The notes below the pieces were generated by a model. It had not been told where the DNA came from. It was given only the letters and a program-made list of their open reading frames with translations, and ran no database searches. A program made the translations under genes and the position numbers. From Owenia fusiformis (lineage: Eukaryota > Annelida > Polychaeta > Sabellida > Oweniidae), in contig CAIIXF020000009.1 in NCBI GenBank assembly GCA_903813345.2, positions 17,261,759-17,325,758 of the forward strand: a stretch of DNA of 64,000 nucleotides, in the 5' to 3' direction. Positions 15,146 to 64,000 of the stretch are shown piece by piece. The first letter of the stretch is position 1, and each line of letters starts with the position of its first letter.

Positions 15146-17561
15146 TTTTAACCATATTCCCATAAAATTCAAGTTAAGGTACTCGTATACTGGCAATAGA
15201 TGGATCCATGCTACCAAAAGCAAGAATTTGACGAATTTGAGCTTTAGGTAAAAAATTTCATGATATCACACTTTTGAAAAATCAATTTCTTACTTTTTCA
15301 AGGAGCAATAGTAAATGAAAGGACCCACGGTCCTGTGCTCACACAGTTTGGAACCTTCAGAGGAATGTATATCCTGACTTTAAAACCAAAATATTGATTT
15401 GGATTTGTAGTCTCGAACTTTGATAACCTTAGATAGAACAGTTGTGTGACCCTAGTTTGATGACCTTATACCTTGAAAATTGTACTTAGTCAGAGCTCAG
15501 TAAGGTCTTTTGTGATTAAGCTGACCAAAATTTACATCCAAAAATCAATTTGAAAAATCAACCTTTCAAAGGTCACTGAAGGTCAAGTGAAGGTCAAATC
15601 CTAAAACTAATGTCAGATTTGAACTCCTGGCAACTTGTAGATGATTTTCAAAAAATTGGGTTAAATTGAAGCAAGTTGAAAAATAACTTATTCTTACTGT
15701 TTTTTGACGTCAAATATCTCAAAAACTGTAAAAATTTGATGCTGACATATATTGAGCAATATGTAGGCAGGGCTTGCATTAACGGCGTCCCATACATATT
15801 AAGGACTCAAAAATAATTTGGAGGACGCAAAAATTGAAAATATTTCCGTTTTTTGGACACAAATATTTTTTTAGGTCAATACTACGATGTGTTTATAACA
15901 ATACCTTACAAAAACAAATAATTATGATCTCTCACCTTTATTTGAATCGTAAATAAGCCTCAACATTTTGAATATTTACAAATAATCATGATTCTCTCGA
16001 ATTTTTTCGACTTTGTTTATTTTTAGATTTTTTTTTTATTTTTTTTTATTTATTTTTTTATTATTTTCAAAATCAAAACATATTTACATATACATTTAAT
16101 CAAGAATACAAAGGTTAAGTAAGGTGTGATAATATAAAATCTAAGGCTACAGTAAGTACATAAACCTGCAGTAATCTCACATCTAATCTATAAGATGTAA
16201 AAAAGAATAAAATAAACCTATAAAGACATGAAAAAGAAACACAGCAAGTACATGTCTATAAAGATGTGAAAAAAGTATATCTACATATACTATGATCTAC
16301 ATCTACTATGTTAATATAACAAGTCAAAATTATTAATGCAGTCCTCTAAAAGGTGCAGCACTTCATTATTTTTCTTCTTCATATGTCTCATATTTTCAAC
16401 ATACTTGGATAAATATAGTAAGGCTTGATTGTTAAAAATTACATCCTTAAGTCCTTCATAATCCTCTGAGTGTTTACTCCAATTTACATAAATGCTATAG
16501 CTGACCACCGTTGTGACAATATTTCTAAATTCTTGAATATTTCCTTCATTCATATAAAACCCTAATATTATATTTTTCCATTGAATATTACATTTTAGAA
16601 TCTTCCCAACATTGACCCAAAGATTTCCTAGTAATCGACACTCAAATATCATATGCTTGATGTCATGAGTTTCATTGCAATATAAACACAGTTTCGAAAT
16701 GTTATTATTCCACTTACTCACAAGTTTACCACATGCCAATATGTTATGAATCAATTTATAGTTAAATTCAGCATATTTTTTGTCAACAATGTTTATAAAT
16801 TTTGACATATAAATAGATCTATAAAACTGTGTTGTATTTGGTGTCTTAAACAATGAACTCCAATAAATTTCCATTACTGTGCTTTCAGCTTTTTCTTTTA
16901 AAAGTATATTATACAATGACTTTGTGCTGATATCATTTATTTTTGTCCATGAGCCATTTTTTAGAAGAATTTGGTTATGGTATCTAATGTTTGTGTACTT
17001 TGCTAACTCCCCATCATGTTCTTTTAATAATTTTACAATAAAACATTTTATTCGGATATATTCAGTCATCCAATTCCTTTTATCAATTAATTTATTTAAA
17101 ACTGTTTTTTCATCTATAACGTTACCATTGATATCAATAAAATCTTTTAAATAAACAAAACCGCTTTTGATCCAGTGTTTGCAATAGAGGACACTTTTCT
17201 TGTTCTGAAACCTTTCATTTAACCATAATAATTCAGAAAATATCCTATTTTTATCTCTGTCTATTGTTACAGTAGTGAGCTACATGTATATTATATTCTA
17301 CTATATTCACCTATAGTTTAATTTGTAATGTATGCTTGCTGTATATGTTGAGCTATTCTTTATTAGAGATCTTAGGTCAAGGTCACAATGACATTATACA
17401 CTGTATCTTGTAAACAAAACTAAACTGAATGACTCATTAACCCTTGACCATCCAGATAGTTCTAGAAATTATAACCATTCATTAAAATTTAATCATGTCA
17501 CTAAAGATGTCCAATCAAGATGTAGTTCCAGAAGATTCGTTTCTGGATCATTCTTTCACAT

Positions 17562-17568
17562 TATAAAA
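17562..17568 (+). promoter_or_regulatory. probable LTR TATA box
   Basis: TATAAAA stands in the middle of the LTR, followed about 70 bp later by AATAAA, the usual U3-R order. The 3' LTR has the same at 22077-22083. Confidence 0.6.
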
Positions 17569-17635
17569 AGAACAGCACAGTGACTCTCATTAGCAGATAA
17601 TTAAGTAATCATAACTGGACATCTCAAAGGAACTA

Positions 17636-17641
17636 AATAAA
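17636..17641 (+). promoter_or_regulatory. probable LTR polyadenylation signal
   Basis: AATAAA downstream of the TATA box; the functional copy would be the one in the 3' LTR at 22151-22156. Confidence 0.5.
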
Positions 17642-18124
17642 GCAGAATTTCAAAGTTGATCAAAGGACATCTTCTTAGCGGAATATTACAGACACATACT
17701 GTGGGAACATTTATAACACTACAAACACACAACCTGAGGACTTTATATGGACATATATTACAACACACACAATATACGGATTATCATATACATTCGTGGA
17801 TTATCATAAACATTTGTGGATTATCATCAAACATTATTGGATACGAACATTATAGGATTACAACAAACATTATTGGATTATTACAAACATTGGAGAACTA
17901 TTAACGATTATTGAAACTTTCGTGATCTGGAACATTCTCAAGGATCGTCAAGGATATTTATCGACATCAAGAATAGGCGTATCATTTCTCTACATCTACG
18001 TATCATAAGTATTGACTTTTATATATTATTGTCATCGCATTTAGTTTTCAAAAATATATTACTGTACATTGTTATATTTTAATTGCTGTTTTTACTTTCT
18101 GTTAGTTTCGAACGTAACAGAAAT

Positions 18125-21779: not shown

Positions 21780-22634
21780 TGTTACAGTAGTGAGCTACAT
21801 GTATATTATATTCTACTATATTCACCTATAGTTTAATTTGTAATGTATGCTTGCTGTATATGTTGAGCTATTCTTTATTAGAGATCTTAGGTCAAGGTCA
21901 CAATGACATTATACACTGTATCTTGTAAACAAAACTAAACTGAATGACTCATTAACCCTTGACCATCCAGATAGTTCTAGAAATTATAACCATTCATTAA
22001 AATTTAATCATGTCACTAAAGATGTCCAATCAAGATGTAGTTCCAGAAGATTCGTTTCTGGATCATTCTTTCACATTATAAAAAGAACAGCACAGTGACT
22101 CTCATTAGCAGATAATTAAGTAATCATAACTGGACATCTCAAAGGAACTAAATAAAGCAGAATTTCAAAGTTGATCAAAGGACATCTTCTTAGCGGAATA
22201 TTACAGACACATACTGTGGGAACATTTATAACACTACAAACACACAACCTGAGGACTTTATATGGACATATATTACAACACACACAATATACGGATTATC
22301 ATATACATTCGTGGATTATCATAAACATTTGTGGATTATCATCAAACATTATTGGATACGAACATTATAGGATTACAACAAACATTATTGGATTATTACA
22401 AACATTGGAGAACTATTAACGATTATTGAAACTTTCGTGATCTGGAACATTCTCAAGGATCGTCAAGGATATTTATCGACATCAAGAATAGGCGTATCAT
22501 TTCTCTACATCTACGTATCATAAGTATTGACTTTTATATATTATTGTCATCGCATTTAGTTTTCAAAAATATATTACTGTACATTGTTATATTTTAATTG
22601 CTGTTTTTACTTTCTGTTAGTTTCGAACGTAACA
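21780..22634 (+). repeat. 3' LTR (855 bp)
   Basis: Same length and, as far as read, same sequence as 17265-18119. It is followed by the CTAT target duplication and then by the continuation of the LINE fragment. Confidence 0.95.
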
Positions 22635-29462: not shown

Positions 29463-30420
29463 TTGTATTACATACTTTTATATCATGGCTAAGTTATATC
29501 AATGACGCCACATGTCTGTGTGCGAGTGAAATTAGGATGAAATGAAACATGACGTCCCGATGACGTCATAAGATTGTCATGGTAAAAGGTTTGGCGGCTA
29601 TACAGGAATATATAGCCGACCTTCAGCTCCATTGACTTCAATACAAATGCTTCGCTGGGTATGTAATACAAGCCTATATATTGTAAAAATGTGATATATA
29701 TTGATGACAGAAAAGCTGATTTCTTCAAAAAGATGGGGCAAAGGTAGGAGATGGAATCAATGGTGTAAATTACCATTACGGACCCCTATGGAATGAACAT
29801 TTAATGGTTCAGACAATAGGCAATTTTCATTTGCTCAAACATTATTGATGAACATGTTGTAATATATAAATAGACTACCTCATCAGATGGACATATGAGC
29901 CAATAAGTACATATGAGGTCTCTACTAGCTAGAGTCTGACATGATGATCTAATAACTTTTAGTGTTTCATAAAGGATTGCTCATCACTGTAAATGTTATA
30001 TTACTGTGTAAAAACTACAGCATCAAGACACCCTCCCTCACATTTAATCTTCTCCTTTTCACATCATCCTCCTAACAATTCTCTACAAAAGCAACCATAC
30101 TGACAATAATTGACCTAAATTCCACACCCAAAATGATGTTCAGATTCTGAGAAAAAGGAATGGCTTCCGGATATTTCAGAATTAAGTCATAACGTTTGAC
30201 CACCATGTTTAGATGGAAGGACACACTCATCATTTATCAAGTATCTCTAGTTGGCTTATCTTCAAATTTCTCTTCAAACTTAAAAGTGCCACTTAGAAAT
30301 GTCAAACTTTATCACTAGAGGGTCTAATCTATGATGTGTAACCATAGTTATCTCCTACTAACTCACAAAAATATTACATGACATACAATGCTTGCATTTA
30401 TAAATATATTATAGCATCCT
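29463..30420. other. nothing recognised; contains one ATGACGTCAT word
   Basis: No gene-like ORF. GATGACGTCATAAG near 29559 matches a palindromic CRE consensus, but nothing nearby gives it a role. Confidence 0.4.
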
Positions 30421-31663
30421 CAATAGAATACAATGTATGAAGTCTCACTAGAATACAATGTATGAAGTCTCATTAGAATATAATATATGAAGTCTCACTA
30501 GAATACAATGTATGAAGTCTCACTAGAATACAATGTATGAAGTCTCACTAGAATACAATGTACATGTATGAAGTCTCACTAGAATACAATGTATGAAGTC
30601 TCACTAGAATACAATGTATGAAGTCTCACTAGAATACAATGTATGAAGTCTCACTAGAATACAATGTATGAAGTCTCACTAGAATACAATGTATGAAGTC
30701 TCACTAGAATACAATGTATGAAGTCTCACTAGAATACAATGTATGAAGTCTCACTAGAATACAATGTATGAAGTCTCACTAGAATACAATGTATGAAGTC
30801 TCACTAGAATACAATGTATGAAGTCTCACTAGAATACAATGTATGAAGTCTCACTAGAATACAATGTATGAAGTCTCACTAGAATACAATGTATGAAGTC
30901 TCACTAGAATACAATGTATGAAGTCTCACTAGAATACAATGTATGAAGTCTCACTAGAATACAATGTATGAAGTCTCACTAGAATACAATGTATATGAAG
31001 TCTCACTAGAATACAATGCATGAAGTCTCACTAGAATACAATGTATATGAAGTCTCACTAGAATACAATGTATGAAGTCTCACTAGAATACAATGTATAT
31101 GAAGTCTCACTAGAATACAATGTATGAAGTCTCACTAGAATACAATGTATGAAGTCTCACTAGAATACAATGTATGAAGTCTCACTAGAATACAATGTAT
31201 GAAGTCTCACTAGAATACAATGTATGAAGTCTCACTAGAATACAATGTATATGAAGTCTCACTAGAATACAATGTATATGAAGTCTCACTAGAATACAAT
31301 GTATGAAGTCTCACTAGAATACAATGTATGAAGTCTCACTAGAATACAATGTATGAAGTCTCACTAGAATACAATGTATGAAGTCTCACTAGAATACAAT
31401 GTATGAAGTCTCACTAGAATACAATGTATGAAGTCTCACTAGAATACAATGTATGAAGTCTCACTAGAATACAATGTATGAAGTCTCACTAGAATACAAT
31501 GTATGAAGTCTCACTAGAATACAATGTATGAAGTCTCACTAGAATACAATGTATGAAGTCTCACTAGAATACAATGTATGAAGTCTCACTAGAATACAAT
31601 GTATGAAGTCTCATTAGAATACAATGTATATGAAGTCTCACTAGAATACAATGTATGAAGTCT
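30421..31663. repeat. 25-bp satellite array, about 49 copies
   Basis: The unit contains GAAGTCTCACTAGAATAC followed by AATGTAT; one period is 25 bp. Most units are identical. Variants with an extra AT (27 bp) cluster at 30990-31270 and recur near 31630; the first units (30421-30500) are the most diverged. There is no spacer diversity, so it is not a CRISPR. Confidence 0.97.
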
Positions 31664-48407: not shown

Positions 48408-48869
48408 ATGGAGGAAAAGTTCAATTTGATTTTCCTTTCCTTGGTTTTGCTGAATGTAGCTGTAGATCTAGAATGCAAAGTTATGCATTTGTCAAAAGAC
48501 TCAAATGAGAACAATGTCATAAAAATGGATATTCCAGATCCTTTAAAAAGTAATGATGGGGATACATCATCAGGCGATAAATCATGCGACATTAGTGACA
48601 ATGATAGGTTTGACTGTTTCTCTGACAGAGGGGCAACTCAGGCGAAATGTGAAGCAAGGGGCTGCTGTTGGAAACCTGCGTCTAGCAATGGGATCCCTTA
48701 TTGCTTCTACCCAACTGATAATGAAGGATACAAAGTGGACTCCGAAACTTTAACAGAATGGGGCATGACAGCAAAATTGTCTCGTAGCTCAAAATCACAT
48801 TGGCCAGAGGATGTAATGCAACTCCAGCTTGATGTAAAGTATGAGACAGCCTCCAGATTACATTTTAAG
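48408..48869 (+). CDS. GH31 exon 1: signal peptide and trefoil domain
   Basis: 154 codons ending in phase 0 at AAG|GTGACC. The N-terminus ([19 protein letters not shown]) is a plausible secretion signal. The trefoil has the expected [12 protein letters not shown] and PYCFYP features, followed by the start of the beta-sandwich. Confidence 0.9.
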
Positions 48870-51800
48870 GTGACCTGTATTTTCATCATCATAGTAGTTT
48901 GTCTTCTAGAATACTTAAAAAATCCAATAGGAAAGCATATAGTATATGTATTACATGCATGTTGTATCGTAACATAAAACTAGTTGGTGTTCATAAAGTC
49001 ATATTTGTTTTTGAAATACGTATAGATTTGTGTAGATCAATATGATACTGAGCTACATGTACAACAATATACAAAATTTTCTTAAGAGTGTCAAATGTTA
49101 CTTTTTAGATATTTGACCCGAACCATGCTAGATATGAGGTGCCAATAGAGACACCACAAGTGAATAACAAGGCCCACACGACAGACTATGCAGTGACTAT
49201 CAGCAAACAACCATTTGCCATCACTGTCACCAGAAAATCTACCAACCAACCTGTGTAAGAATCCCAGCATTAACATCTTCCCTTTGGCAAGGGGAGGGTA
49301 CTGTATGATTGCAGGATAGAAATTAAATTGTCATCATCAGAAATTTTGTATAGTATAATGATAAAGGACGATTCTGGGTTTGGAGAACAAAGTTCATCAA
49401 TCTAAATGAGCATTATCCCTGCTTCGGACAAATTTGATTTTTTTTACATAACATAGATTTGAATGTCTTCTTTTGAATAGTCATAATTTAATTTGGGTAA
49501 TATTTCTAGATTTTTCGCAAAAAAATATTCGCGCAGTACACTGATGAACTTCTTTCCCCAAATCGAGATTTGTAATTTATTGAATCGGTCAAATTGAGCG
49601 TTATCCGTGCTTCAGACCAATTTGTTATTTTTACATCTTGTAGATCTAAATGTCCTCTTTTGAATATTCATAGTTTAATTTGGGTAATATTTCTATATTT
49701 TTCATGAAAAAAATTATTAGCCCAGGAGACTGTTCTCCAAACCGAGAATCGTCCTTTAGAATTTAAAACATTTAAAGATGAAATGATCATACATGTACAT
49801 GTATGTGACTTCAAAGTATGCATACTGTATATATTTCAGATATATACTCGTATTATGCACATGTATATTTTATACATGTAATTGTGTTCATTTCATTTTC
49901 CAGATTTGACACAAAGTTGAATACACCATTTATATTTGCAAACCAGTATATTGAAATTTCCACATCTTTAGCTAATAAGTTTGTGTATGGACTTGGTGAA
50001 CACAGGAGTTCCTTTCAACTGAATACAACATGGCAGACATTGGCATTCTGGGCAAGAGACCAACCACCAACAGTAAGAAATTACACCATTGGTTTTCAAG
50101 AGATCTCTAAATTAGACAAATGTTGGGATGCAAGTAACATTGCACTTAGCTTGTATTCATAAATGCAACTACTGGCTACCTGATTTACCTATTGATTTTA
50201 ATAGATTAACCTGTCATTTCGAAATCTAAATAACGAAGAACCCATTAGTCTACGAAAAGTTGTTCGGTTGAATTAGTGAACAGATCGTAGGTCATCACTT
50301 GTTGTTGAATAGGCAGATTTACCTGTTATTTAGCTCAGTGATTGGATTTAATGCAATAGCTTGCAGCTACTGGGATGCACAACAGCATATTAAATGAGTT
50401 AGCATTCATGAATACAAGCTTAGTTATATTTAAAACAAAAAGAAATTTTATCAAACTAATGAAAATCATTTCAAATAGCAACATTGTGTATCAACTAATA
50501 AGTCTTCATTTTGCCAAACAAGAGAGTCTTCTTTGACACTACCATATTTCAAATCTGCCAAGTGTGTCTCAGCCAATCGGCTCAGAGTATTTTAGTGCAT
50601 TAATTCATATATGGTCAACTGAGCAGAAACATTTTTTTACAGTGCATTAATGGTTTCATATTGAAGTTCATATTTGAGTAAAATTCTATAAACATTATCT
50701 AATAGGGAATAACAAACTACATGCTTATGCAGGTCAAATGGTAAGTGTTGAACGGTTGTCAAGATGACCATCCATGATTCTGACCATCACAATTAGAAGT
50801 GACAACTTGACCCTTGCAAAAGGTTTCCTTAAAAATATATTCTTTTAAGTATTTTCATATCTTTTAACTGATAGGGCCTATTGTTGAAAATATTTTGGAA
50901 TGTGTGAAAAGAATTTAAATCCAAGACTTGGTGCATTGTGGGTGATTTATTCCACTGAGGCATTGTTTCCTAAACTTAACCCTTGGTGCTACACATCTCA
51001 TGCAAAGCTTGAAACAACACCTCAGAGGAATGATCAGTCCACAATGCAGTCCAGGGCTTAAATCCTTGAATCAAATAATGTTACTCACAGGGCCATCATT
51101 GCATTGGCCTAGGGTTTGTCAGTGTTGTATATGATGTTTAAAACAGAAATCGTGAAAACTAAACAAAATAAAAAATATATTATACTGAAAAGTCTGATAG
51201 AAATTAGATGTACCATAAGTTCATGCAAAAACATTCTAATTTTTTTATTTTTCAATGTTTTTCCTTGAAACTTTCACACAACATAGAAAAAATGTATACT
51301 CATTAAATATTAAAAAATAATTTTTTTTATATTGATTGGTCAAAAGTTATGGTTGCTATGGTAACCTGTGTTTTGGTCACGCGGGGCAATATTTTTCTGT
51401 TTGCGAATCCCAAGTCTTAAGTTTGGAAAAAGTTATTATGCAAGAACATTATTCTTTCATTTTGAATAAAACAGCTATTGTTGCATTGGTAGCAACTAGC
51501 ATCCGGGTTGCAATTACATTTGTATTGTAATATCATCATAGTTTATTTCTTAAATGCAACCTTTAGAGAGTTCCGCCCGGAGCGAGCTTTACAAAAGAAA
51601 CGGCCTAAAATTACCCCCGTCTTCAAATAATTTCACAAAGACAATGTCCCATGCCATCGAGCAAATATGGTTCGGGATACTATCCGGAATACCCTACAGA
51701 TGGCAGTTTTAGACCAGGTTGCATACTCCCCAATGAGGCTGTATTGGACTTTGGGAGTTCAATAGGATGAAAGATGAACTGAGAGGTGTTCGGTATGCTG

Positions 51801-54800
51801 GCATGACAGAGTTCACTGCAGCTGCCCAGAGTGCCTTGCACACTAAATTCCCTTGTTATTTTATGGTTCAATATGAAGAATGGGTGAAGCACCAGGTACC
51901 TCATATATGCATCCAATATAAAAGGGAATATTTTGGTCATTAAATGAAGTGACATGTTTGGTAGGAACCTCCAATTTGAAAAGACAATGTTTTATAGATA
52001 CATGTGCAACTTATAATTCACAAGAGTTTAATTAAAATTGAACTCAGGTTACCATAGCAACCATAACTTTTGATCAAGCAGAACAAAGTAATTTATTTTT
52101 TGTTTTTTTAATGTGTAGATATTTTTTCTATGTTTTGTGAAAGTTTCCAGGAAAAACATAGAAAAACAAAAAAATGAGAATGATTTTGCATGAACTTATT
52201 GAACGACCTGGTACATGTACTCCAATTATTGAAGGTTATAAAACTCAATGTTGTTAAACCCTATTTATTTCCAGCCTAATGTTAACTTGTATGGAGATCA
52301 TCCTTTCTTCATGAGCTTTGATGACATAGGAAATGCATATGGAGTCTTCCTGCTGAACAGCAATGCAATGGGTAGGCTATATACTATGAGGAGTGTCTTT
52401 AGAATTACAGTACACCAATCCTTTTAGATTTTTATGTCGCCACCACAGTGGTAACCTAGATTGTTATAGTCCCAAATTTTGTTGACCTGTTCCCTGGGTG
52501 GTGTTCAGCATCTGTAACAAATGGCAGGTGATGACATTTTGCATGTAATGCCTATTTAATTGTTTTACAGTATATTGCATTTGCAAATCTAAAATTATAC
52601 TTGCTTTAGAACACCAAAGGCAGACTGTCATATACTATATAATGCAATTGAATGAATTTGAAATGATACACAGAGTTTACTTGAGTTTTTCTAAACTGCA
52701 TTATTGATTTTAGATATAAGCCTCCAACCAAAACCAGCTGCTACATATAGAACCATTGGAGGCATTCTTGATTTTTACATTTTTCTTGGCCCAACTCCTG
52801 ATGATGTAATCAAGCAATATCAGGGAACCATTGGCTACCCATTCATGCCTCCCTATTGGTCACTTGGTTTCCATCTCTGTCGATATGGATACAAGAGTAG
52901 CGATGACATTCGTACAGTAATTAATCGCATGCAAGCTGGAAAATTTCCATATGTAAGTGTGTCCAATGTGCCATCCATATTTGCTCCCCTACATGTTCCT
53001 GCTATTATTATCAAAATAACATTCTACATTTTGTGTGCTTGTAGAGGTCTTATTGCAGCCAACGCCTGCACTTACTTACAAAACCATAGGTGGCATACTA
53101 GATTTCTATATTTTCCTTGGTCCATCACCTGATGATGTCATTGCACAATACACATCTGTGATTGGTCAATCATTTCTTCCACCTTATTGGTCGCTTGGTT
53201 TCCATTTGTGTCGCTGGGGCTATGAGACCACTGATAATTTGAAGCAAGTTATAAAGCGAATGAAGGATGCCAAATTTCCATATGTAAGCATATTATTGTA
53301 AGGAATGTACACTGGGTTTGCTTAGAACTGGTTGACAGCACATGTTTGAAATGATTACAATGGTGATAATAAGACTATGGGGAATAACTCCAGAGTCCTG
53401 AGATTACATCCATCTATAATGTAAATCTGTATTGAGATGATATCATCGCTGATTGGTCAAATGGACAGACAAATGACATCATTACATTTAATGGGGTTTT
53501 CAAAATTTTCAAAACAAACTTTGAAAGAAAGATTTCCTCCTCTTGATGATATATAGGTTATTAACTTGGAGGGATTGAATATGGGTTTTATTCTGAGGGA
53601 CAATATGATATTGACCGAAGGGTGATATGATATTGACCGAGGGAGCGCAGCGACCGAATGTCAATATCATATTTCCCAATATCATATTTTCCGAGGAATG
53701 AAACCCATATTCAATCCCGACCAGAAATAACCTATTTATTCCATAATACATTCCTCTAAAATGTTACATTTTGAAAATACTTTTATCAATTAGCTAAGGT
53801 TAGAAATAACAGGAAAACCAAAAATAGGTTAATATTTTCCAATATGATTTTTTTCCCGGGGACAATACGATTTTTTCATGTAATACGCTCCAATACGATT
53901 TTCTTCCCAGGGACAATACGATTTTTTCATGTAATACGATTCAATACGATTTTTATTCCTTCATTTTTCCCTGGGAAAATAGTAGTATTATGGAATAATA
54001 TTTTATATGTTATATGTCATGGGTGCAGAATCAAGACACTAGCCTTGTCCGAGACAGTATTTCCTTTTACTTATCTTGATCTTCAGTTATTACTGCCTTG
54101 TTCCATGCACTTTATCTCCGTTGATATTACGATAAATTATGAGTCAAATATTGTGCATCCGCCAGCATTAGCCAATAGTGGAAGTTGCAAACAATACTAG
54201 TAACATGTGCTGGCATGCTCGCCATGTGATCCAAGTGGGCCAGCCAGCAGTCAAAAATACATTTTCATTTCAGCGACCTTTTTTTCAAGAATTTCTGTTG
54301 AAATCCTCGCAGCTCCGTGTATCAAATTGATATTCCTGCATCCACTATATCCTTGATTGATATCTATTTGATAAAATATTTGTATTTTCACGATTAAGTG
54401 TGGAAGATTTGTTCGGTTTTTGAAAAGTGTTTTTCCACTGAGCATAATGAGCCAATGCTGTAATACAATCACTGATTGCCTAATAGCGAAGCATTTTTAT
54501 GGCTCCGATCTATTAGTCAAATATTTGAGCAACAATAACAAACTGTCAGTGTTGTTGGAACAAGGCGGTGATGTAAAAGAAAGTAAAAAAGACACAGACT
54601 TGGGCAAGGCTATCAAGAAAATACAACTCCTATTTCTACAATGAAATATTCAACACTAGGAATGATTTGAGAAAACATGTTTTGATCAGAAGGATTTGAT
54701 CTGTTCAATGATTATTATTACCTCACATAGTAAGCTATAGCAGAAATTATTACTCACATTTCGTGGCATGTTTTAAAACCAAGGTCGGTAAAATACCCAT

Positions 54801-57800
54801 TTTAAGTTTTTTGGTTCATCATCAATATAGAAATCCTCATGGAGTCCCAGTTCAAAAGCTCACATATTTTCAAAGTAACCACCTATTTTGGACCATTTAA
54901 TAGCTGCTTTATAAATAATTTCAGGTGTCCTGAATTGTTAACACCCATGTCACTGTAAGCAGTACATGTAATTTTATGAGATAATAAAAATAATGTAAAG
55001 CTAATCAGCAAAAATTTATATCTGCTATTTTATTGTAGTCCTATTTTGAGATTTTCCATCCTAAAATGTCTCGAAAAGTAGTCTTGTTTACACTATTTGA
55101 TCATGCCAAAACATTTGATTGACTTTTATCTGAAACTTTTAGAGATGTTTCTTGGTATGAAAGTTTAAAACTGGTTAGTTTTTTGCATTCTTGGTAAATG
55201 TTAAGGTGGCCATTTGGATTTTCCATCCTAAAATCTTGTCTGTAAAGTCTAGTCTCTATTTAAGCTACACCATGTGAGCCCAGCTCCCATGGTACTATTT
55301 ATTCTAGTTAACTATTATGTGGTTACAGGATGCCCAGTGGTGTGACATTGATTACATGAAAGACCACCTGGACTGGACCTATGATGCTGACAAATTCAAA
55401 GACCTTCCCACGATTGTGAAAGATCTGCATGATAATGGCATGCATTATGTCAACATCATTGTAAGTAATACTTGCCTAGTACTTGCCAAGGCTGTAATAT
55501 GCCACTTTAGGTACACTGTAGCATAGGAGCAATGATTTGATGAGTATTCCACTACAGACCATCTTTATTTTGTGATGTCACACCTTTGAAAATACATGTA
55601 CGTTTTTTAATTTACATAGATTATTAGATACATTATTTGGATAAATTGAATAAATTATACATGTATCATGTAGTGGATTTTTTAATGAATATTTGTTTAT
55701 GAAAATAAAATCATGAGAAAGAGGAAGAAAAGAGCTTTAAAATACTTTTTATTTCAAGCTTCTAGCTCAATTTTGAAGGAAGTTGCATCAATTTTTGTAA
55801 AATTCAAAATACATTATGTAAATCTTATTTTTTGGCTTGTTTATGCCACAATCACATCATCATAAACAGACATCATATAAACAGACAGCATCACCTCTAT
55901 TTAAATCTTGCATGTATTAACCTAACTTTGAAATTGTACATTCCAGGACCCTGGTATCAGCAGCACTCAGCCCAAAGGCAGCTACAAACCCTATGATGAT
56001 GGTCTCAGACAAGGGGTCTTTGTAATGAAGGCAGATGGCTCAGGTCCTATCATTGGAAAGGTACTTTATAATTCAAAATGCTCAGCCAAAATTATAGGCA
56101 TGTTTTCATGCCAATTAGATGTATAACGCACCCATATAAAGATTCACCTTCAAACCATTTGAACTATCATCATTCAACACTTGTACAAACAAGACAACTG
56201 GTAGGTATATAAGTGCAATGGCAAAATACGAAACATGGTTGCAAAAGAAAACATCTAAGAGTACACCAGTCATAAGAAAAATAACCCCCAAATATCCTGA
56301 ATCATAAACCGTGTGGAAAGAAACAGTTGCATGAAATTAACATTTTGAAGACAATGAGACAATTAAAGAAATTAAAAGATGGATTCATTATTTGAAAGAT
56401 CACATTTGCGTTTAAATCACAATCTGCTGCATGTTTAGATCAACTAGATCATCTAATGGCATGTCAATGGAGTCTACATTATGCCGAGTGGAAAAATTTA
56501 TAAATAAAAGTAACAAGAAGCATTTTGTATTCATGTCATTCTATATTCTAGGTGTGGCCAGGAAATACTGCATACCCTGACTTTACCAACCCTACCACCA
56601 TAGACTACTGGTACCAATCTGCAAGTGACTTCCATAACCAGGTCCCCTTTGATGGCCTCTGGACTGTAAGTAAAATCAATATGGTCATCATTCATCATAT
56701 TTTTGGGATTTGTGCTTCAAGCACAATCATTTATATATGAAATTGAGTACAAATAAATTAATTACAATTCTATTAATTACAATACAAACTTATTACTCAA
56801 CATTAAGCTTATATCTCTTATTTTGAAAAATGGATGAGTCCAAATACAAAATGATCAGTCCCTCAAGCCATAACATTTAGCACAGAATTTGCAGTTCTGC
56901 ATGTACATTTTGAATCACCCATTATTTTTATGTTTTACTCATTGGATCATACCATGGACTATTTTTTTCCAAATTAGGGGTATAAGCATTATGTCTTTAT
57001 GAATTGCTTGTATTGTGTCTAATGTTTAAAGATTCGATGATGACACATTGCCTGATTATATTTTATTAATGGTGTGGTATTAATTGATATAGAATTTTAC
57101 ATAGACTCATGAATTTTGTGCAAAATATAAATATGTTCTTGTATGACTTTTTGAGATTTGCTTCTAGGATATGAATGAACCATCTAACTTTGATGTTGGT
57201 TCAACTGAAGGCTGTAGCACCAATCCATTAGATGACCCTCCATTCACACCAGGTAACTGCAGAAACACACACTTTCACTATTTGCATATGCACTAAGATA
57301 ATTTGGAATGTTTTAGGATGTAAATGAACCAACTAATGGCCTCTATGGCTCTATAGAGGGCTGCTCTAGCACAGACACATTAGATAATCCACCATGGGTC
57401 CCAGGTAACAAGGATGGAAGTATAAAATATGATAGTATGAAATATATAGTTATCACGACCCAGTTAGAATAATTTTGCATCACACCTTTGTCCAGCTTAC
57501 AAGGAGTTCCTAACACACCATATAAGTAAAAAAGACTGCATATGCTCCAAAATTCCCAAATCCAAAACATATGTCTAATTTCCACATAAGGATTCTGTAA
57601 GATTAACGAATGAATCAATTTGCATATTCACTGATGTCATAACTCATCATAACATTGTACATGTAACAGAACAATATTGATTTACAAGCTGTGTATGCAT
57701 GTACAGTATGTAGCTTTTCAGTGCTGCAAGTACTTATATCTCAGTACTTAAGTCTAAAGTATGTGTAAAATATGTTTCAATGCATGTCACCACATTTCCA

Positions 57801-60800
57801 TGGTATGTCTGAATGAGTTATGACATCATAATAAATATAGATTTTTTTTTACAGAATCTTATCTGGGGCTTCAGTCAGCTTTATTTTGCTAACAAACATG
57901 ACACAATCAGACAATAAATTGTTACATCTTCTAAATTAAATAGTAGAACAAGAAAACAGTTACCATGGAAATGTTAATCAACTTACGTCTTAATTTCATA
58001 ATTAATAACAGGTAGATGTATATATGAAAGCCTGACATAGTCAGCTTTCCAGTGCCACCAAGTTTGCTGATATCCGAAGTGTGTATGTTAAAAAGTATTT
58101 TCCAATCACCTTTGAGCTATACCTTTTCTGCATATATGTTATATACATATTATTTACACATCTTTTACCTGAGCTGCATGAAGGATAACCCTTACACTGA
58201 ACATTTTCTCATGCCTTTGCCAAATGACTTTTCCCAAAGCCTGATTATAAGCTATTTCTTCTTTCTTACAATGAAGCATTGTTGTCTGTCTGGCATTCTG
58301 CCGGATGTCTGAACATCCCCTCCTAGACCATTTGATCTTGGGCCCTCATACTTGGTCAACATACTAAGTTGGTCTGCATTCTACGAAGGTCAGAGGTCAT
58401 TCCAAGGTTAAAGGTCAATATCTAGGTGTTTGGCTTTTTAAGACCCTTGGTCTGTGCTGTGACCCTTGGTGATCAATGATTAGGTGACCTGAGCTCAAGG
58501 TCAATGTTTATAGGTCATAGTCATCTCAAGGTCGAAGGCCAATATGTAAGTATTTGCTGTTTTAATTACCTTGGGAGCTGTACCTGAGTTGAAGGTCATT
58601 CCAAGGTCAAACGTCAATATCTAGGTATTTGGTGTTTAAGACCCTGGGGGCTGCTGTGACCCTTTGGACCCATGATTAGGTGACCTTAAGTCAAAGTCAA
58701 TGTTTATGGGTCAAGGTCATCTCAATGTCAAACGTCAATATCTAAGTATTTAGGATTTTAAGGCACTTGAAGGATACTGTGATCCTTGGCGACTTATGAT
58801 TAGGTAACCTGAGGTCAAAGTCAATGAGAGTCAAAGGTCAAAGGTGAATATGTAGGTATTTGGTGTTTCAAGGCCTTTAGATGAGTTCATCTCAATTCAA
58901 AAATTAATCAAGGTCAATGATCAATAATCAGGTATTTAACATTTTATGAGGGCTGCTGCCATGTGGGGGCTGATGTGACCCTTGGTGACCCACTCAAATG
59001 GGTAGATTTCCAGTTGTTAATAATTATGTAAGTACTATGTACATAAATGGAAGGACAACCAATAAAAAGAGCTCGTAGAGCTTTCTGAGTTTTTCACATA
59101 TTTACTTTTTCTTATTTTTACTTTTTTATTATTCTATCAAAGCAGTTTTCTCCTTCTTCAAGCATAAGTAAAGTTTAACTATAACTATATGCACTTATTA
59201 CGAACCTTGTATTGCTGAATGTTTCAAATTGAACCAATCTTTGCTATTAATGTAATACATGTACGAGTATATAGGGTGTCTCAAAAAATGTACCCAAAAG
59301 TATATCAACACCATAGACAAACCAATCAATTTTTTCAGACATTTTTTGCATGGTCTTGTAGATAAAAGATGAAAGTATCTTTTCCCTGTACACAGTTTTT
59401 AATTCAGTTCTGCCTTTTTGATACTTTGACCCGTTATCTTTTGCACCACATATTCAATGTAACCTCATATTTCGATGACAGTCTGCATCCTTACTACTAC
59501 ATTGTTCATCACATTTGATATTTCTGGTGGAATGTTTTGATTTCTGTTCGGATGCTGGTCTTAAGTTGTTCTAGGTCTCTTAGCTTGGGTTTAGCATAAA
59601 AATGCTCCTTCAAATAGCCTCAGAGAAAAAAGTATGGGCCGTCAAATATGGTGAATAGAGAGGCCCTCACAATGTCTTATAGCCCCCTTATACAGAGAGG
59701 TCAGAGGTTCAAGAAACTGCATTGGGTGGGATTCTAGTGTTGCTTTTGTTGTGTGTATCAATTTGAGAGCACTGTGTTTTCATTTGGTATCCAGGCTAGC
59801 CTGCCTAACTCTGGAAGGTAGCTCCTGAATCATTTGCCGATAATTGACCTGATTATCTGTGTTTTTTCTGCCATCGTCATCCTCAAACATCTTTCTCTGT
59901 GGCTATTTAAAGGAGTGTTTTAATGCTCATTCCAAGCAAAAAGACCGAGAACAACTTAAGGGCAACATCCAAAGAGAAATCCAAAACATTTCACCGGAAT
60001 TATTATCAAATGTGATGAACAATGTAGCAGTAAGGATACAGGCTGTCATCGAAATATGAGGTTACAACAATTTTGTGGTGTAAAAGGTAAAGGGTTAAAG
60101 CATCAAGAAGACAAGACTGAAATAAAAATGGTGTATTGGGGAGAAAACTTTCATGTTTTGGCTACATGACCATGCAAAAAATGTCTGAAAATATTGATTG
60201 GTTTATCTGTGCTCTTGATACACTTTTGGGTACATTTTTTTGAGACACCCTGTATGTCAATTATGTGTTATCTTGTGTATATTCTATATGATAAACTGTA
60301 CATGTATTGTGTAATGATAGTGTAAAGTAGTATAGTGCATTGTAGTGTAGTGTTGGCTATCGGATATCCAAGTATTATTATCCCACTGAACGAAGTTCGA
60401 GGGGGATAAAGGAAAGCCGTCCGTTCGTCCGTCCGTATGACCTCTGCTCGAGAAAGAATTTTCGATATGGCCGCTTAATTAAAAATGGAATCGAATACTT
60501 GTGGATGGATTTGATTCAAATTTTATATGGTCGCCATTTATCGAAACATGTTTTGTTTGGTGGGATTTGCTACTCCATGGAGTCGCTGTTTTTCTAGTTT
60601 TAAGATTGGCACATTTAGGGGGAGGTATCTTAATTAAGTACATACAATGTCCTGGACATCCTCCTATATCTTAAATGATCAAACTTTGGTTGACCCTACC
60701 TACATGTAGGTACCGAATATTGACTTTTGCACACTCTATATTGTTTCTCATACACTCTTAAATTAATGGTATTGTTCCCCCAAAATTGAATAAGTCATAT

Positions 60801-63800
60801 GCAGTTGGTAATATTGTATTTTGTAATTTTAATAGTATGTTGCTATAATTAAATTATTGAAAAAATGAATTTTCTGAAAAATGAGAATTTGGCGAAAAAA
60901 TGAAAATTTGAAGAAAAATATTGTGAAAAAAAGTCAGGATAGTAATATCAGATGATCTTATCTACAATTAGTTGTACACTATAACCTTTTGTTGTCTACT
61001 TTTAGGTATAGCAGGTGGTAGACTTGCTGACAAGACACTGTGTGCCTCATCGAAACATCACACTACAACTCACTACAATGTACACAGTCTCTATGGGCAT
61101 GGGGAGGCAATTGCCTCTAACCTGTAAGTATAATAGCTGGTCTCGGGATGCATGCACTGAATATTCGTTATCTTTGGCTTGTTGAGTGCTATACAAGCAT
61201 ATTGATAAGCATCACGAAAAAATGCTTTAAAATAGATCTTAATTATCCCAACGTAGGGATATAGAAAAGCTGTTCGTCCATCTGTTACACAGGGAGATAT
61301 GCTGAGTACTAAAATAGAACTCATGGCATTTTAGCGCTAATTGAGTACTAATTTCATCAAATATTAGTACTAAATGAGCACTAATGACATGAGTGCTGAT
61401 TTTTAGTACTTAATGAGTACTCATATGATGAGCGATAAAATAGCACTGATTTCATTGATTTTTTGATTACTCAATGAGCACTCATACTATGAGCACTGAT
61501 TAAGTGCATGTTTTAGTACTAAATGAGTACTCATATCATGTAAGTCTTATTAGTACTAAATTAGCACTCGTGGCATGAGTGCTCATGAGCCCACTTTTGC
61601 CAGAGTACTAATTTTGTACTATTTTGGTACTCAGCATATCTCCCTGTGTACTATAGATCATCAGTCTGCAAAAAACAAAATTTTTTGCAGAATCCCTGAT
61701 TTTCATGAAAATCCCGCGGAATTACCAGAATTTCCAGAAATTAAATATTTTACGATCTCCTACCTTTGCGGGGTTTTTGAAGAGTGTCTGTTTATGTCCA
61801 ACAATCAATCATTATTGAGTACAAGTACGATTTCACCGTGAAATTCAACATTCTATCACGTTTAAATTCGCTAAAGCGAGTTCGCTAATGACGCGCAGTT
61901 CTTACCTAGAAAGTAGCTGACTTCTGTTTCCGTTTAAATCCCTTGCTATGTCAATTTTCATCGTTTTAAAAGATTGGCTAAGGACCTCTGCTAAAGGAGG
62001 CAATTTCAATATGGCCACTCATTTCAGAATGGCCAACATTTGTCATAGAAAAATGTAATCTTTGATACCTCAAATGCCAGTCGATGGATTTGTTCAAAAT
62101 TTTATATCCTTATGCTTAACTCAATGCTGGCCAAAGCTATTTCGGAGGTTTTCTGCTGGTGACTGGCCATTTTGTTGAAAAATTGAGCAAAAAGGCATGT
62201 TTTCATATTAGCATAACAGGAACTGTATCAACACCCTCATTGCTATGTTTTATGCATGATAATATATTTCAATTGCACCCAACCATGCTCCCCTACTGAC
62301 TTCAATATTTGGAAAGATTATTGGTACAAATTGTGTGACAATTATTGGACAGTACTCTGATGTAATGTTACAATATAAATGTCAAAATGTCATTTTAGAG
62401 CACTGAAAAAGATTCGAAACAAACGTCCCCTTGTGATCACAAGATCCTCATTCCCAAGCACTGGTAGACATGCAGGTCACTGGCTGGGAGACAATAATTC
62501 TGGCTGGAATGATCTCTATTACTCTATACCAGGTATGTAGATTGCACTATACCAATTGTAAATGTAGTGTAGGTTACTCTATACCAAATGTAAATGTAGT
62601 GTAGGTAACCCTTTACCAAGTCCATGTAAATGAAGTCTAGGTTGCCCTATACCAAGTACCCTATGTAAAGAAATAAAGGTGCATGGTCCTTTATCAGTCA
62701 TATTTTTTTTATTTTTCAGTATTATCATACTAAACATTCAGATGTACAATGTATATTTGGCCCAAATGTAGAAAATTTCAAGAAATTTTGTAAATATGGT
62801 AAAAAGTGTGACTTTTTAAATCCTCTTAAAAAATCAGTCAATAGAACGACAGTCTGATTAATAACAACCAAATAAGGGGTAGGGGTAAGATAATTATAAC
62901 CCCTAGCCTTTCACAATCACCCATAGATATGGTAAACATCTTAAACTTAGCATATGCATACCAACATTTATGTCAGATGTGAATATAAATGTGTTTATTG
63001 AGCAGATTGGTTACATCCAATTACAATGGTACATATATATGTAAATGTAGTGTAGGTTGCTCTACGTATACCAATTAAGTTCATGTAAATGTAGCGTAGG
63101 TTACTCTCTACCAAGTATATGTAATTTTAGTGTAGGTTACTCCATACCAAGTTCATGTAAATGTAGTACAGGTTACTCCATACCAAGTTCATGTAAATGT
63201 AGTACAGGTTACTCCTTACCAAGTTCATGTAAATGTAGTACAGGTTACTCCATACCAAGTTCATGTAAATGTAGTACAGGTTACACTTTACCAAGTTCAT
63301 GTAAATGTAGTACAGGTTACTCTATATCAAGTTCATGTTAATGTTGTACAGGTTACTCCATACCAAGTTCATGTAAATGTAGTACAGGTTACTCCATACC
63401 AAGTTCATGCAAATGTAGTGCAGGTTACTCTCTACCAAGTTCATGTAAATTTAGTGTAGGTTACTCTATACCAAGTTCATGCAAATGTAGTGCAGGTTAC
63501 TCTATACCAAGTTCATGTAAATTTAGTGTAGGTTACTCAATACCAAGTTCATGTAAATGTAGTACAGGTTACTCCATACCAAGTTCATGTAAATGTAGTG
63601 CAGGTTACTCTATACCAAGTTCATGTAAATGTAGCGTAGGTTACTCTCTACCAAGTCCATGTAAATTTAGTGTAGTTTACTCTATACCAAGTCCATGTAC
63701 ATATTCCTTATCTAGTGGTCCTAGAAATTCTGACTCCTAGTAAATACATTACCAATACTATAACTACCACCAGAAGTGGTGACATATTGTTATAGTCTCC

Positions 63801-64000
63801 ATCTTTTTGTAAACCATATTCAGCATCTATAACATGGCGTCTGTAACAAATGGCAAATAGTGACATTTTGCATGTTATTACCTATAACATAGTGAATTGA
63901 TTTCCTTAACATAGCATTATGTTTCAGGTATTTTGAACTTCAATATGTTTGGAATTCCTCTGGTAGGACCTGATACATGTGGATTTGGTGGCACCACAAC
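48408..64000 (+). CDS. GH31 alpha-glucosidase (GAA/MGAM/SI type), 3' end outside window
   Basis: It hydrolyses terminal alpha-1,4-linked glucose from glycogen, starch or maltose, in lysosomes or outside the cell. About 627 codons in 12 exon positions are present: signal peptide (about residues 1-20), P-type trefoil domain (Cys 60, 70, 81, 86, 87, 99), N-terminal beta-sandwich, and GH31 barrel with transition-state-region Asp (CDID, residue 377), nucleophile Asp 492 in D(M/V)NEP, Arg 574 and acid/base Asp 590 in GHWLGD. Spacings match human GAA as I recall it (Trp376-Asp404 = 28, Arg600-Asp616 = 16). The window ends just after [12 protein letters not shown], so roughly 300 C-terminal residues are missing. 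Exon positions 5 and 9 are each present twice as alternatives. A single trefoil and single catalytic unit fit GAA better than the doubled intestinal enzymes, but orthology is not proved. No transmembrane anchor is evident. Confidence 0.93.
49109..49254 (+). CDS. GH31 exon 2: N-terminal beta-sandwich
   Basis: Acceptor TTTTTAG|ATA, donor GT|GTAAGA; 146 nt, phase 0 to 2. Encodes [15 protein letters not shown], the counterpart of DPANRRYEVPLET in vertebrate GAA. Confidence 0.9.
49364..49756. mobile_element. intronic MITE, AAGGACGATTCT ends, TA target (intron 2)
   Basis: The ends AAGGACGATTCT..TTTGGAGAACA and their complement are inverted over about 25 bp; TA flanks both sides (49362-49363, 49757-49758). 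The inside is a duplicated block of about 200 bp (TTTAATTTGGGTAATATTTC occurs twice). Confidence 0.8.
49904..50072 (+). CDS. GH31 exon 3: beta-sandwich with GLGEH motif
   Basis: Acceptor TTTTCCAG|ATTTG, donor ACA|GTAAGA; 169 nt, phase 2 to 0. Encodes [12 protein letters not shown] and [12 protein letters not shown], hallmarks of the GH31 N-domain. Confidence 0.92.
50145..50424. mobile_element. intronic inverted-end element (intron 3)
   Basis: AGCTTGTATTCATAAATGC on the left and the complement of GCATTCATGAATACAAGCT on the right form inverted ends of about 22 bp. No clear target duplication. Confidence 0.6.
51218..52196. mobile_element. intronic 1-kb element with arms of about 155 bp, TA target (intron 3)
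   Basis: AGTTCATGCAAAA and following sequence up to AAAGTTATGGTTGCTATGG is mirrored at 52045-52196 with scattered mismatches. TA flanks both ends (51216-51217, 52197-52198). No transposase ORF. Confidence 0.75.
52275..52371 (+). CDS. GH31 exon 4
   Basis: Acceptor TTTCCAG|CCT, donor ATGG|GTAGGC; 97 nt, phase 0 to 1. Encodes [16 protein letters not shown] and [10 protein letters not shown]. The single trailing G is shared with either exon 5A (Asp) or 5B (Glu). Confidence 0.92.
52714..52952 (+). CDS. GH31 exon 5A (alternative; Tyr form)
   Basis: 239 nt, phase 1 to 0, acceptor GATTTTAG|AT, donor TAT|GTAAGT. Encodes barrel-entry sequence with [15 protein letters not shown]. Tyr at protein residue 349 occupies the position of Trp376 in human GAA and Tyr299 in the N-terminal unit of MGAM. 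It has the same length and phases as 5B, and the two proteins are 54/80 identical. Confidence 0.9.
53045..53283 (+). CDS. GH31 exon 5B (alternative; Trp form)
   Basis: 239 nt, phase 1 to 0, acceptor TGCTTGTAG|AG, donor TAT|GTAAGC; it starts only 92 nt after exon 5A. Encodes [15 protein letters not shown], with Trp at residue 349. Over the 14 shared codons [14 protein letters not shown], 8 differ from 5A, all silently, so both copies look old and selectively maintained. Confidence 0.9.
53552..54000. mobile_element. intronic palindrome plus CAATACGATTTT repeats (intron after 5B)
   Basis: 53552-53735 folds on itself: GGATTGAATATGGGTTTTATTC and CAATATGATATTGACCGA are answered by their complements, with GAGGGAGCGCAGCGACCG at the centre. 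53820-53960 then repeats CAATACGATTTT several times. It is a better preserved relative of 8330-8625. Confidence 0.75.
54260..54610. repeat. intronic copy of the 40370-40740 repeat
   Basis: It shares TTGATTGATATCTAT(C/T)TGATAAAATATTTGTATTTTC and flanking sequence in the same order with the interior of the 40235-41051 element. Its inverted ends were not found here. Confidence 0.65.
55329..55460 (+). CDS. GH31 exon 6: QWCDIDYM segment
   Basis: 132 nt, phase 0 to 0, acceptor GGTTACAG|GAT, donor ATT|GTAAGT. Carries the conserved WxDxDYM sequence with the active-site Asp corresponding to human GAA Asp404. Confidence 0.93.
55947..56060 (+). CDS. GH31 exon 7: DPGIS segment
   Basis: 114 nt, phase 0 to 0, acceptor ATTCCAG|GAC, donor AAG|GTACTT. 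Encodes [20 protein letters not shown], aligned with [20 protein letters not shown] of GAA. Confidence 0.93.
56552..56665 (+). CDS. GH31 exon 8: VWPG segment
   Basis: 114 nt, phase 0 to 0, acceptor TATTCTAG|GTG, donor ACT|GTAAGT. Encodes [14 protein letters not shown] and ends QVPFDGLWT, two residues before the nucleophile Asp contributed by exon 9A or 9B. Confidence 0.93.
57168..57252 (+). CDS. GH31 exon 9A (alternative; DMNEPSNF form)
   Basis: 85 nt, phase 0 to 1, acceptor TGCTTCTAG|GAT, donor CAG|GTAACT. Encodes [16 protein letters not shown], with the catalytic nucleophile Asp 492 followed by Met as in most animal GH31 enzymes. Confidence 0.92.
57317..57404 (+). CDS. GH31 exon 9B (alternative; DVNEPTNG form)
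   Basis: 88 nt, phase 0 to 1, acceptor ATGTTTTAG|GAT, donor CAG|GTAACA, only 64 nt after exon 9A. Encodes [16 protein letters not shown] and NPPWVPG. The nucleophile Asp is kept, the next residue is Val instead of Met, and the following loop is one residue longer. Good splice sites and an open frame argue against a dead copy. Confidence 0.87.
58380..58995. repeat. AGGTCA-rich tandem array in intron 9
   Basis: Degenerate units of about 120-130 bp contain CAAGGTCAA..GTCAATATCTAGGTATTTGG, GCTGTGACCCTTGG and ATTAGGTGACCT. It is distinct from R3 but equally rich in AGGTCA and TGACC half-sites. Confidence 0.7.
59475..59690 (-). pseudogene. transposase C-terminus remnant, left arm
   Basis: Read on the minus strand, SPYLT, then a shifted FFSEAI/LKE region, then [16 protein letters not shown] followed by a stop-broken tail. 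It corresponds to the SPDLTPCDFFLWGYLK..LKQRIREEI region of mariner transposases, with frameshifts. Confidence 0.65.
59859..60059 (+). pseudogene. transposase C-terminus remnant, right arm
   Basis: An open stretch encodes [31 protein letters not shown] and [16 protein letters not shown], the typical C-terminal helices of mariner-family transposases. The catalytic DDE core is absent. Confidence 0.8.
60375..60570 (-). repeat. R2-related end fragment in intron 9
   Basis: ATCCCACTGAACGAAGTTCG and the CCGTCCGTTCGTCCGTCCG run are the inverted form of the R2 distal end (1056-1135). The following ATTTTATATGG segment resembles 62085-62105. Confidence 0.6.
61006..61123 (+). CDS. GH31 exon 10
   Basis: 118 nt, phase 1 to 2, acceptor ACTTTTAG|GTA, donor CCT|GTAAGT. 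Encodes [20 protein letters not shown] and GEAIASN, matching [20 protein letters not shown] of GAA. Confidence 0.93.
61288..61648. mobile_element. 361-bp AGTACT-rich MITE, CACAGGGAGATATG ends (intron 10)
   Basis: CACAGGGAGATATGCTGAGT and its complement form inverted ends of about 30 bp; TA flanks both sides (61286-61287, 61649-61650). The interior repeats GAGTACT, TTAGTACTAAAT and GAGCACT words many times. Confidence 0.85.
61683..61975. repeat. copy of the 27684-27967 repeat (intron 10)
   Basis: Nearly identical to the interior of the 27623 element, including CCCGCGGAATTACCAGAATT and ACGCGCAGTTCTTACCTAGA, with a short insertion near 61935. The 88-codon ORF crossing it occurs in part in both copies but looks like chance. 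Confidence 0.8.
62399..62532 (+). CDS. GH31 exon 11: acid/base region
   Basis: 134 nt, phase 2 to 1, acceptor CATTTTAG|A, donor CCAG|GTATGT. Encodes [20 protein letters not shown] followed by LGD, where Asp 590 is the acid/base. The 3' edge TTACTCTATACCAG is the word later amplified in the intron minisatellite. Confidence 0.93.
62535..63700. repeat. 36-bp minisatellite in intron 11
   Basis: The unit holds GTTACTCYATACCAAGTTC and ATGTAAATGTAG. Dense copies run from about 63035 to 63700 (roughly 18) and scattered ones lie at 62541-62660. The period is a multiple of 3, which creates a spurious 94-codon ORF with a 12-residue repeat. Confidence 0.92.
63928..64000 (+). CDS. GH31 exon 12 (cut by window end)
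   Basis: Acceptor ATGTTTCAG|GT, phase 1. Encodes [20 protein letters not shown], aligned with [20 protein letters not shown] of GAA. The donor lies beyond the window. Confidence 0.9.

Follow-up and report, generated by a model that had tools for sequence, protein, structure and literature searches.

Two candidate pairs of mutually exclusive exons in a lysosomal alpha-glucosidase-like gene of the annelid Owenia fusiformis

Mutually exclusive exons are an established gene architecture, and enzymes in which exon choice switches a substrate region are already known (PMC3228551, PMC7434440, PMC1543647). The coq-2 gene of C. elegans, helminths, annelids and molluscs has tandem exclusive exons, 6a and 6e, of 134 nt each, a length that is not divisible by three, as is also true of the exons considered here (PMC7434440). 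Their choice is described as remodelling the enzyme core and switching the substrate, which is what we propose for the Owenia gene (PMC7434440). In mammalian ACSL1 and ACSL6, exclusive exons exchange a single aromatic residue (Phe/Tyr) in the fatty-acid gate, much as exons 5A and 5B of this study swap Tyr and Trp at the position of W376 in human lysosomal alpha-glucosidase, GAA (PMC1543647). The human clusters of mutually exclusive exons have the same architecture as the Owenia pairs. Among the titles found in the open-licence literature, none dealt with mutually exclusive exons in a GH31 enzyme or an alpha-glucosidase. The locus described here lies in a window of 64,000 nt, by which we mean the whole stretch of Owenia fusiformis DNA that was analysed. 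It quite likely contains two mutually exclusive exon pairs, 9A/9B and 5A/5B, that re-tune a single GAA-like GH31 active site.

The best protein match to the gene is a public O. fusiformis protein of 910 residues (P0001). Its residues 1-627 agree fully with the predicted product that contains exons 5A and 9A, which confirms the gene model across the 12 exons in the window (Table 1). Pfam finds a Trefoil domain (residues 60-102), the GH31 N-terminal domain and the GH31 barrel, and thus the complete GAA-like domain set. By its sequence, the gene is that of an annelid lysosomal alpha-glucosidase-like (GAA-like) GH31 enzyme; a lysosomal location and glycogen hydrolysis would be predicted for its product. 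Human GAA can be aligned to the gene product over residues 72-653, and counting along this alignment places the nucleophile D518 in exon 9 and the general acid/base D616 in exon 11. Both catalytic Asp residues are encoded whichever version of exon 9 is used, and all four combinations of 5A or 5B with 9A or 9B are open over the 12 window exons. Within the window, neither a tandem gene nor a second GH31 locus was found at E values up to 1. Human GAA has exons of 85, 118, 134 nt and so on, which suggests that the asymmetry of the exons is ancestral.

Table 1. Exons of the GAA-like gene, and the introns within the two exon pairs, by position in the window
Feature	Position	Strand	Characteristics	Basis
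Exon 1	48408..48869	+	N-terminus with hydrophobic leader (by eye); entire trefoil (P-type) domain	open frame; identical to P0001; Pfam
Exon 2	49109..49254	+		gene model, match to P0001
Exon 3	49904..50072	+		gene model, match to P0001
Exon 4	52275..52371	+	phase 1 at end	gene model, match to P0001
Exon 5A	52714..52952	+	239 nt; phase 1 to 0; Tyr at GAA W376 position; annotated version	
5A-5B intron	52953..53044	+	92 nt	
Exon 5B	53045..53283	+	239 nt; phase 1 to 0; Trp at GAA W376 position	
Exon 6	55329..55460	+	single copy; GAA D404 equivalent	
Exon 7	55947..56060	+		gene model
Exon 8	56552..56665	+	ends in phase 0 directly before the nucleophile codon; W481 and W516 equivalents	
Exon 9A	57168..57252	+	85 nt; phase 0 to 1; DMNEPSNF...; nucleophile Asp (GAA D518), Met519, Phe525; annotated version	
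9A-9B intron	57253..57316	+	64 nt; branch-point-like CTAA starting 24 nt from the 3' end	
Exon 9B	57317..57404	+	88 nt; phase 0 to 1; DVNEPTNG...; with the nucleophile Asp; M519 replaced by Val and F525 by Gly	
Exon 10	61006..61123	+	phase 1 to 2	gene model, match to P0001
Exon 11	62399..62532	+	HWLGDN; general acid/base Asp (GAA D616)	
Exon 12	63928..64000	+	runs off the window; gene continues beyond	P0001 has 910 aa

A sequence-only reading of this DNA had described 9A and 9B as neighbouring exons of 85 and 88 nt, 64 nt apart, both entered in phase 0 and left in phase 1, and this anatomy was confirmed to the base. Both exons do carry the nucleophile Asp, as had been claimed, in the context GAT-ATG/GTA-AAT-GAA-CCA, and all four of their boundaries have GT-AG. 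The early stops that it had predicted for the two misspliced products are also present: if 9A and 9B are joined, translation ends at the TGA at 57325-57327, with 77 nt of 9B still to follow, and if both are skipped, it ends at the TAG at 61009-61011, with 112 nt of exon 10 to follow. The same reading had concluded that the frame demands exactly one exon 9. This holds in so far as both or neither lead to an early stop, but the frame alone does not demonstrate regulated splicing, because the lengths of the paired exons (239 nt for exon 5; 85 and 88 nt for exon 9) are not multiples of three. Tandem copies of such lengths exclude each other automatically, and we have rejected frame exclusivity as evidence of regulation.

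The claim of a second, independent pair in the same gene turned out to be correct: 5A and 5B are 239 nt each, lie 92 nt apart and have equal phases, and inclusion of both or neither again leads to an early stop. Searched against the window by tblastn, the 5A peptide matched 5B at an E value of 1.9e-38, and the 9A peptide matched 9B at 9.8e-8. Altogether, 12 peptides were searched in this way (exons 2-4, 5A, 5B, 6-8, 9A, 9B, 10 and 11), and apart from the pair partners nothing in the window matched with an E value below 0.03, hence no sign of third copies or of duplicates of exons 2-4, 6-8, 10 or 11. At the DNA level, the similarity between pair partners reaches no more than a few bases beyond the exons; since it is confined nearly to the exons, the duplications are not recent. 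The introns between the copies have 64 and 92 nt, compared with 239-3601 nt for the eleven other introns of the gene. For 9A/9B, and likewise for 5A/5B, the sequence features by which mutually exclusive exons have been recognized in published work are all present, namely lengths within 20 aa of each other, compatible splice sites, a common frame, absence of in-frame stops and homology (PMC3228551). Together with signs of purifying selection and the short intron between the copies, they support the mutually exclusive reading of 9A/9B at the level of sequence.

Repetitive DNA occurs in two of the gene's introns and upstream of the gene. Intron 11 contains a 36-nt minisatellite of about 17 copies (window 63077-63699). 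The 3.6-kb intron after 9B contains long inverted repeats (83%; window 59269-59636 and 59884-60255), perhaps the remnant of a DNA transposon. Elsewhere in the window, two direct repeats of 855 nt each, 100% identical (17265-18119 and 21780-22634), flank an open reading frame with SCAN and integrase zinc-binding matches and no reverse transcriptase match, an arrangement suggestive of an LTR element that is young and incomplete. A tandem array at 30419-31663 has self-matches that are about 94-98% alike, at offsets stepping by roughly 50-100 nt.

The divergence between the copies speaks for a long coding history of all four exons. Between 9A and 9B, 14.5 of 18.8 synonymous sites and 18.5 of 65.2 nonsynonymous sites differ (NG86; pS 0.770, pN 0.284), and between 5A and 5B, 42.1 of 53.0 synonymous and 39.9 of 184.0 nonsynonymous sites (pS 0.794, pN 0.217). 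We report only these proportions, as dS is undefined in the codon model at such near-saturated synonymous divergence. With rounded counts, Fisher p values were 1.7e-4 for the exon 9 pair and 3.1e-14 for the exon 5 pair, and a pS-pN difference of zero or less was found in none of 2000 bootstrap replicates for either pair. Identical aligned residues number 17 of 28 for 9A/9B and 54 of 79 for 5A/5B. When the neutral decay of one copy was simulated, exon 9 retained an open frame with at least the observed amino acid identity in 12.3% of 1500 runs if 0.3 substitutions per site were applied, in 0.13% for 0.5, and in none for 1.0 or 1.5; for exon 5, both were retained in 0 of 600 runs at each of four distances. 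Saturated synonymous sites, few amino acid changes and the simulations together argue that both copies of each pair were coding, and apparently under purifying selection, for most of their history, a pairwise result that is compatible with a recent loss of constraint on one copy.

The residues that differ between the copies lie at the active site. We compared them with 119 homologs (the best other matches among 2479, many of them vertebrate). In exon 9, 9A outscores 9B against 107 of these homologs, with lower scores in 10 and ties in 2; in exon 5, it is 5B that scores higher than 5A in 103, with 10 lower and 6 tied. As 5B and 9A are nearer to the homologs, exon 5 of the annotated isoform is of the derived kind and its exon 9 of the canonical kind. 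Tyr in 5A and Trp in 5B occupy the GAA W376 position, where 109 homologs have Trp, 8 have Tyr and 2 have Phe. The position of GAA M519 is occupied by Met in all 119 homologs and by Val in 9B; Val was found there in no protein of a wider set of 239, in which 67 have no letter at this position. At the F525 position, the homologs have Phe (113), Met (3), Asn (2) or Thr (1), and 9B has Gly. Fourteen exon 9 columns show at least 94% agreement among the homologs; 9A keeps all of them and 9B keeps 11, the lost ones being M519, S523 and F525. The nucleophile Asp and the NEP, GC and PP motifs are retained in 9B. Since 9B alters two highly conserved positions of the active-site wall, it is not an equivalent copy of 9A.

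Published work gives these positions a meaning. In human GAA, W376 and M519 are ligand-contacting residues of subsite -1 (PMC5653652), and docking and simulation place Phe525, Met519 and Trp481 in a hydrophobic pocket for an inhibitor alkyl chain (PMC7357040). A docking study has the equivalent residues of sucrase-isomaltase (SI), Trp327, Met473 and Phe479, surround acarbose (PMC8323934). According to a review, both domains of MGAM have Tyr at the W376 equivalent, N-terminal SI has Trp there, and replacing Tyr by Trp in MGAM reportedly increases the hydrolysis of isomaltose (PMC9612090). The equivalence of the Owenia residue to W376 is based on the GAA alignment, the motif and a spacing of 28 residues to the next active-site Asp, which is also the distance from Y299 to D327 in the list of MGAM residues (PMC9612090). 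Because the exon 5 switch concerns the very residue whose Tyr-to-Trp change reportedly raises isomaltose hydrolysis by MGAM, it offers a specific and cheap enzyme test (PMC9612090).

The two pairs may not be kept exclusive in the same way. For human exon clusters, a distance of less than 50 nt between donor and branch point has served as a steric criterion, and the 64-nt intron between 9A and 9B falls within this human limit (PMC5740500). Placed 15 nt or further from the acceptor, a branch point would be at most 49 nt from the donor, and only one within 14 nt of the acceptor would escape the limit, the branch point itself being a guess from the motif. The direct joining of 9A to 9B is probably blocked sterically by this intron, the limit being a human one that may not be Owenia's. 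Some animals do splice introns of about 50-60 nt. Between 5A and 5B, the intron of 92 nt is too long for the steric criterion (a branch point 18-40 nt away from the acceptor would lie 52-74 nt from the donor), and the exclusion of 5A and 5B may therefore depend on a regulator or on the decay of messages with both exons. By the usual rule, a message is decayed when its stop precedes a junction by more than 50 nt, and the misspliced exon 9 messages, with stops 77 and 112 nt upstream, would then be subject to decay. Compared by eye with the consensus for U12 donors, the donors of exons 4, 5A, 5B, 8, 9A and 9B (GTAGG, GTAAG or GTAAC) give no indication of a U12-type intron. The acceptor of 9B has the lowest pyrimidine count of the 13 acceptors, if barely (8 of 17, with 9 in three others and 12 in 9A), on a crude scale, as splice sites were scored by simple consensus counts rather than trained models. 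This low count fits a model in which 9A is the default and 9B is regulated. Docking and selector sequences of a competing RNA structure were sought around 9A and 9B (56560-57900) in this one genome, and of the 19 inverted pairs seen there, none was compelling on inspection.

The annotated Owenia protein contains the 5A and 9A versions only. Five short strings specific for 5B or 9B were absent from all 240 proteins that were fetched, and among the matches listed (the best 120 of 2479) there was no Owenia protein with 5B or 9B, in a protein set whose clustering at 90% could hide such an isoform in the two-member cluster of P0001. A 270-residue query for partial transcripts returned none named Owenia among 120 of 125 matches, many of which are nameless. 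A query with 9B in its context (residues 484-529) gave 8 candidates and no hit; we take it to be uninformative, because P0001 itself, which is the same at both ends, was not returned. If 5B and 9B are indeed used, the gene shows how annotating a single isoform for each gene can conceal variants of the active site.

We suggest the following model. Each mRNA would take exactly one exon from either pair, and products with both or neither, which bear early stops, would be removed by nonsense-mediated decay. The choice at exon 5 would set Tyr or Trp at the GAA W376 position, in subsite -1, which is tied to the preference for alpha-1,4 or alpha-1,6 linkages. The choice at exon 9 would set Met and Phe or Val and Gly at the positions of M519 and F525, with the catalytic nucleophile retained. 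As wall residues of the active site are swapped and the nucleophile is kept, the isoforms, up to four, would be alpha-glucosidases that differ in linkage or aglycone preference, an expectation that follows from the positions of the residues. Exons 5B and 9B would then be used in RNA, with the choice probably made by tissue or stage. A stricter version, in which the gene holds a 2 x 2 splicing code, with exon 5 toggling the maltase/isomaltase residue and exon 9 the nucleophile segment with its pocket wall, to give four linkage specificities from one locus, is one that we entertain tentatively, as possible rather than probable.

Exon 9B might instead be a fossil, a duplicate that has no function or lost it recently and that seldom if ever enters the mRNA, with 9A as the constitutive exon. 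The changes in three of the 14 strongly conserved columns, one of them invariant in the 119 homologs, would fit such a loss of function, as would the acceptor tract, which is slightly the weakest, and the presence of only 9A (and 5A) in the annotated protein; the lost columns and the weak acceptor are also the points that weigh against our own model. However, 9B is open and in phase, its GT-AG boundaries are intact, it has kept 17 of 28 residues at near-saturated synonymous divergence and 11 of the 14 conserved columns, and neutral decay fails to reproduce this pattern at 0.5 substitutions per site or more. We regard a fossil 9B as distinctly unlikely. Even more improbable, to the point of being hardly credible, is an assembly artefact that put a collapsed paralog or allele into the introns as 9B and 5B. 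The extra exons are 64-92 nt away from their partners and have dissimilar flanks, the pairs interleave with single-copy exons (2-4, 6-8, 10 and 11 are without a second copy in the window), and the DNA difference of 35-39% is too large for alleles.

The pair could also be exclusive, as we propose, with a 9B isoform that is catalytically dead and acts as a decoy, or it could serve as an expression switch through unproductive splicing; the splicing part of these ideas overlaps with our model. Loss of activity would agree with the replacement of Met519 and Phe525, and the early stops in both-exon and no-exon products would suit a switch. The retained nucleophile Asp and NEP, GC and PP motifs argue against a dead enzyme, and a pure off-switch would not maintain a coding 9B under purifying selection. 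We consider this outcome improbable, if less so than a fossil exon, and continue to favor two exclusive pairs that re-tune an active enzyme.

If this is true, splicing selects the residues around the nucleophile of a glycosidase. The coq-2 gene has one pair, encodes a prenyltransferase and is proven by RNA, whereas the Owenia gene, known at the DNA level, has two pairs in a glycosidase, with the catalytic nucleophile encoded by the exons of one pair (PMC7434440). ACSL1 and ACSL6 likewise have one pair, at a gate rather than in a nucleophile segment, with isolated transcripts (PMC1543647). A further case comes from amphioxus. Two isoform models of a GAA-like gene of Branchiostoma lanceolatum, P0019 (named X2) and P0086 (named X3), differ over their aligned length in one block only, residues 651-687 of P0019, which corresponds to Owenia residues 522-558, inside exon 10. 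This looks like a mutually exclusive exon pair, with an alternative homologous exon that apparently adjoins the exon 9 equivalent, as judged from protein models. As the block lies in the neighboring exon, the event was probably independent of the Owenia pair, and it suggests that exclusive exons may have diversified this enzyme family more than once. Human GAA shares with the Owenia product the trefoil and GH31 domains, and the nucleophile and acid/base in the same motifs. In GAA, MGAM and SI, the Trp/Tyr difference lies between proteins, whereas in Owenia both residues occur within one gene (PMC9612090). If the stricter, 2 x 2 version of our model is correct, one locus would do a job that in mammals is spread over separate proteins and domains.
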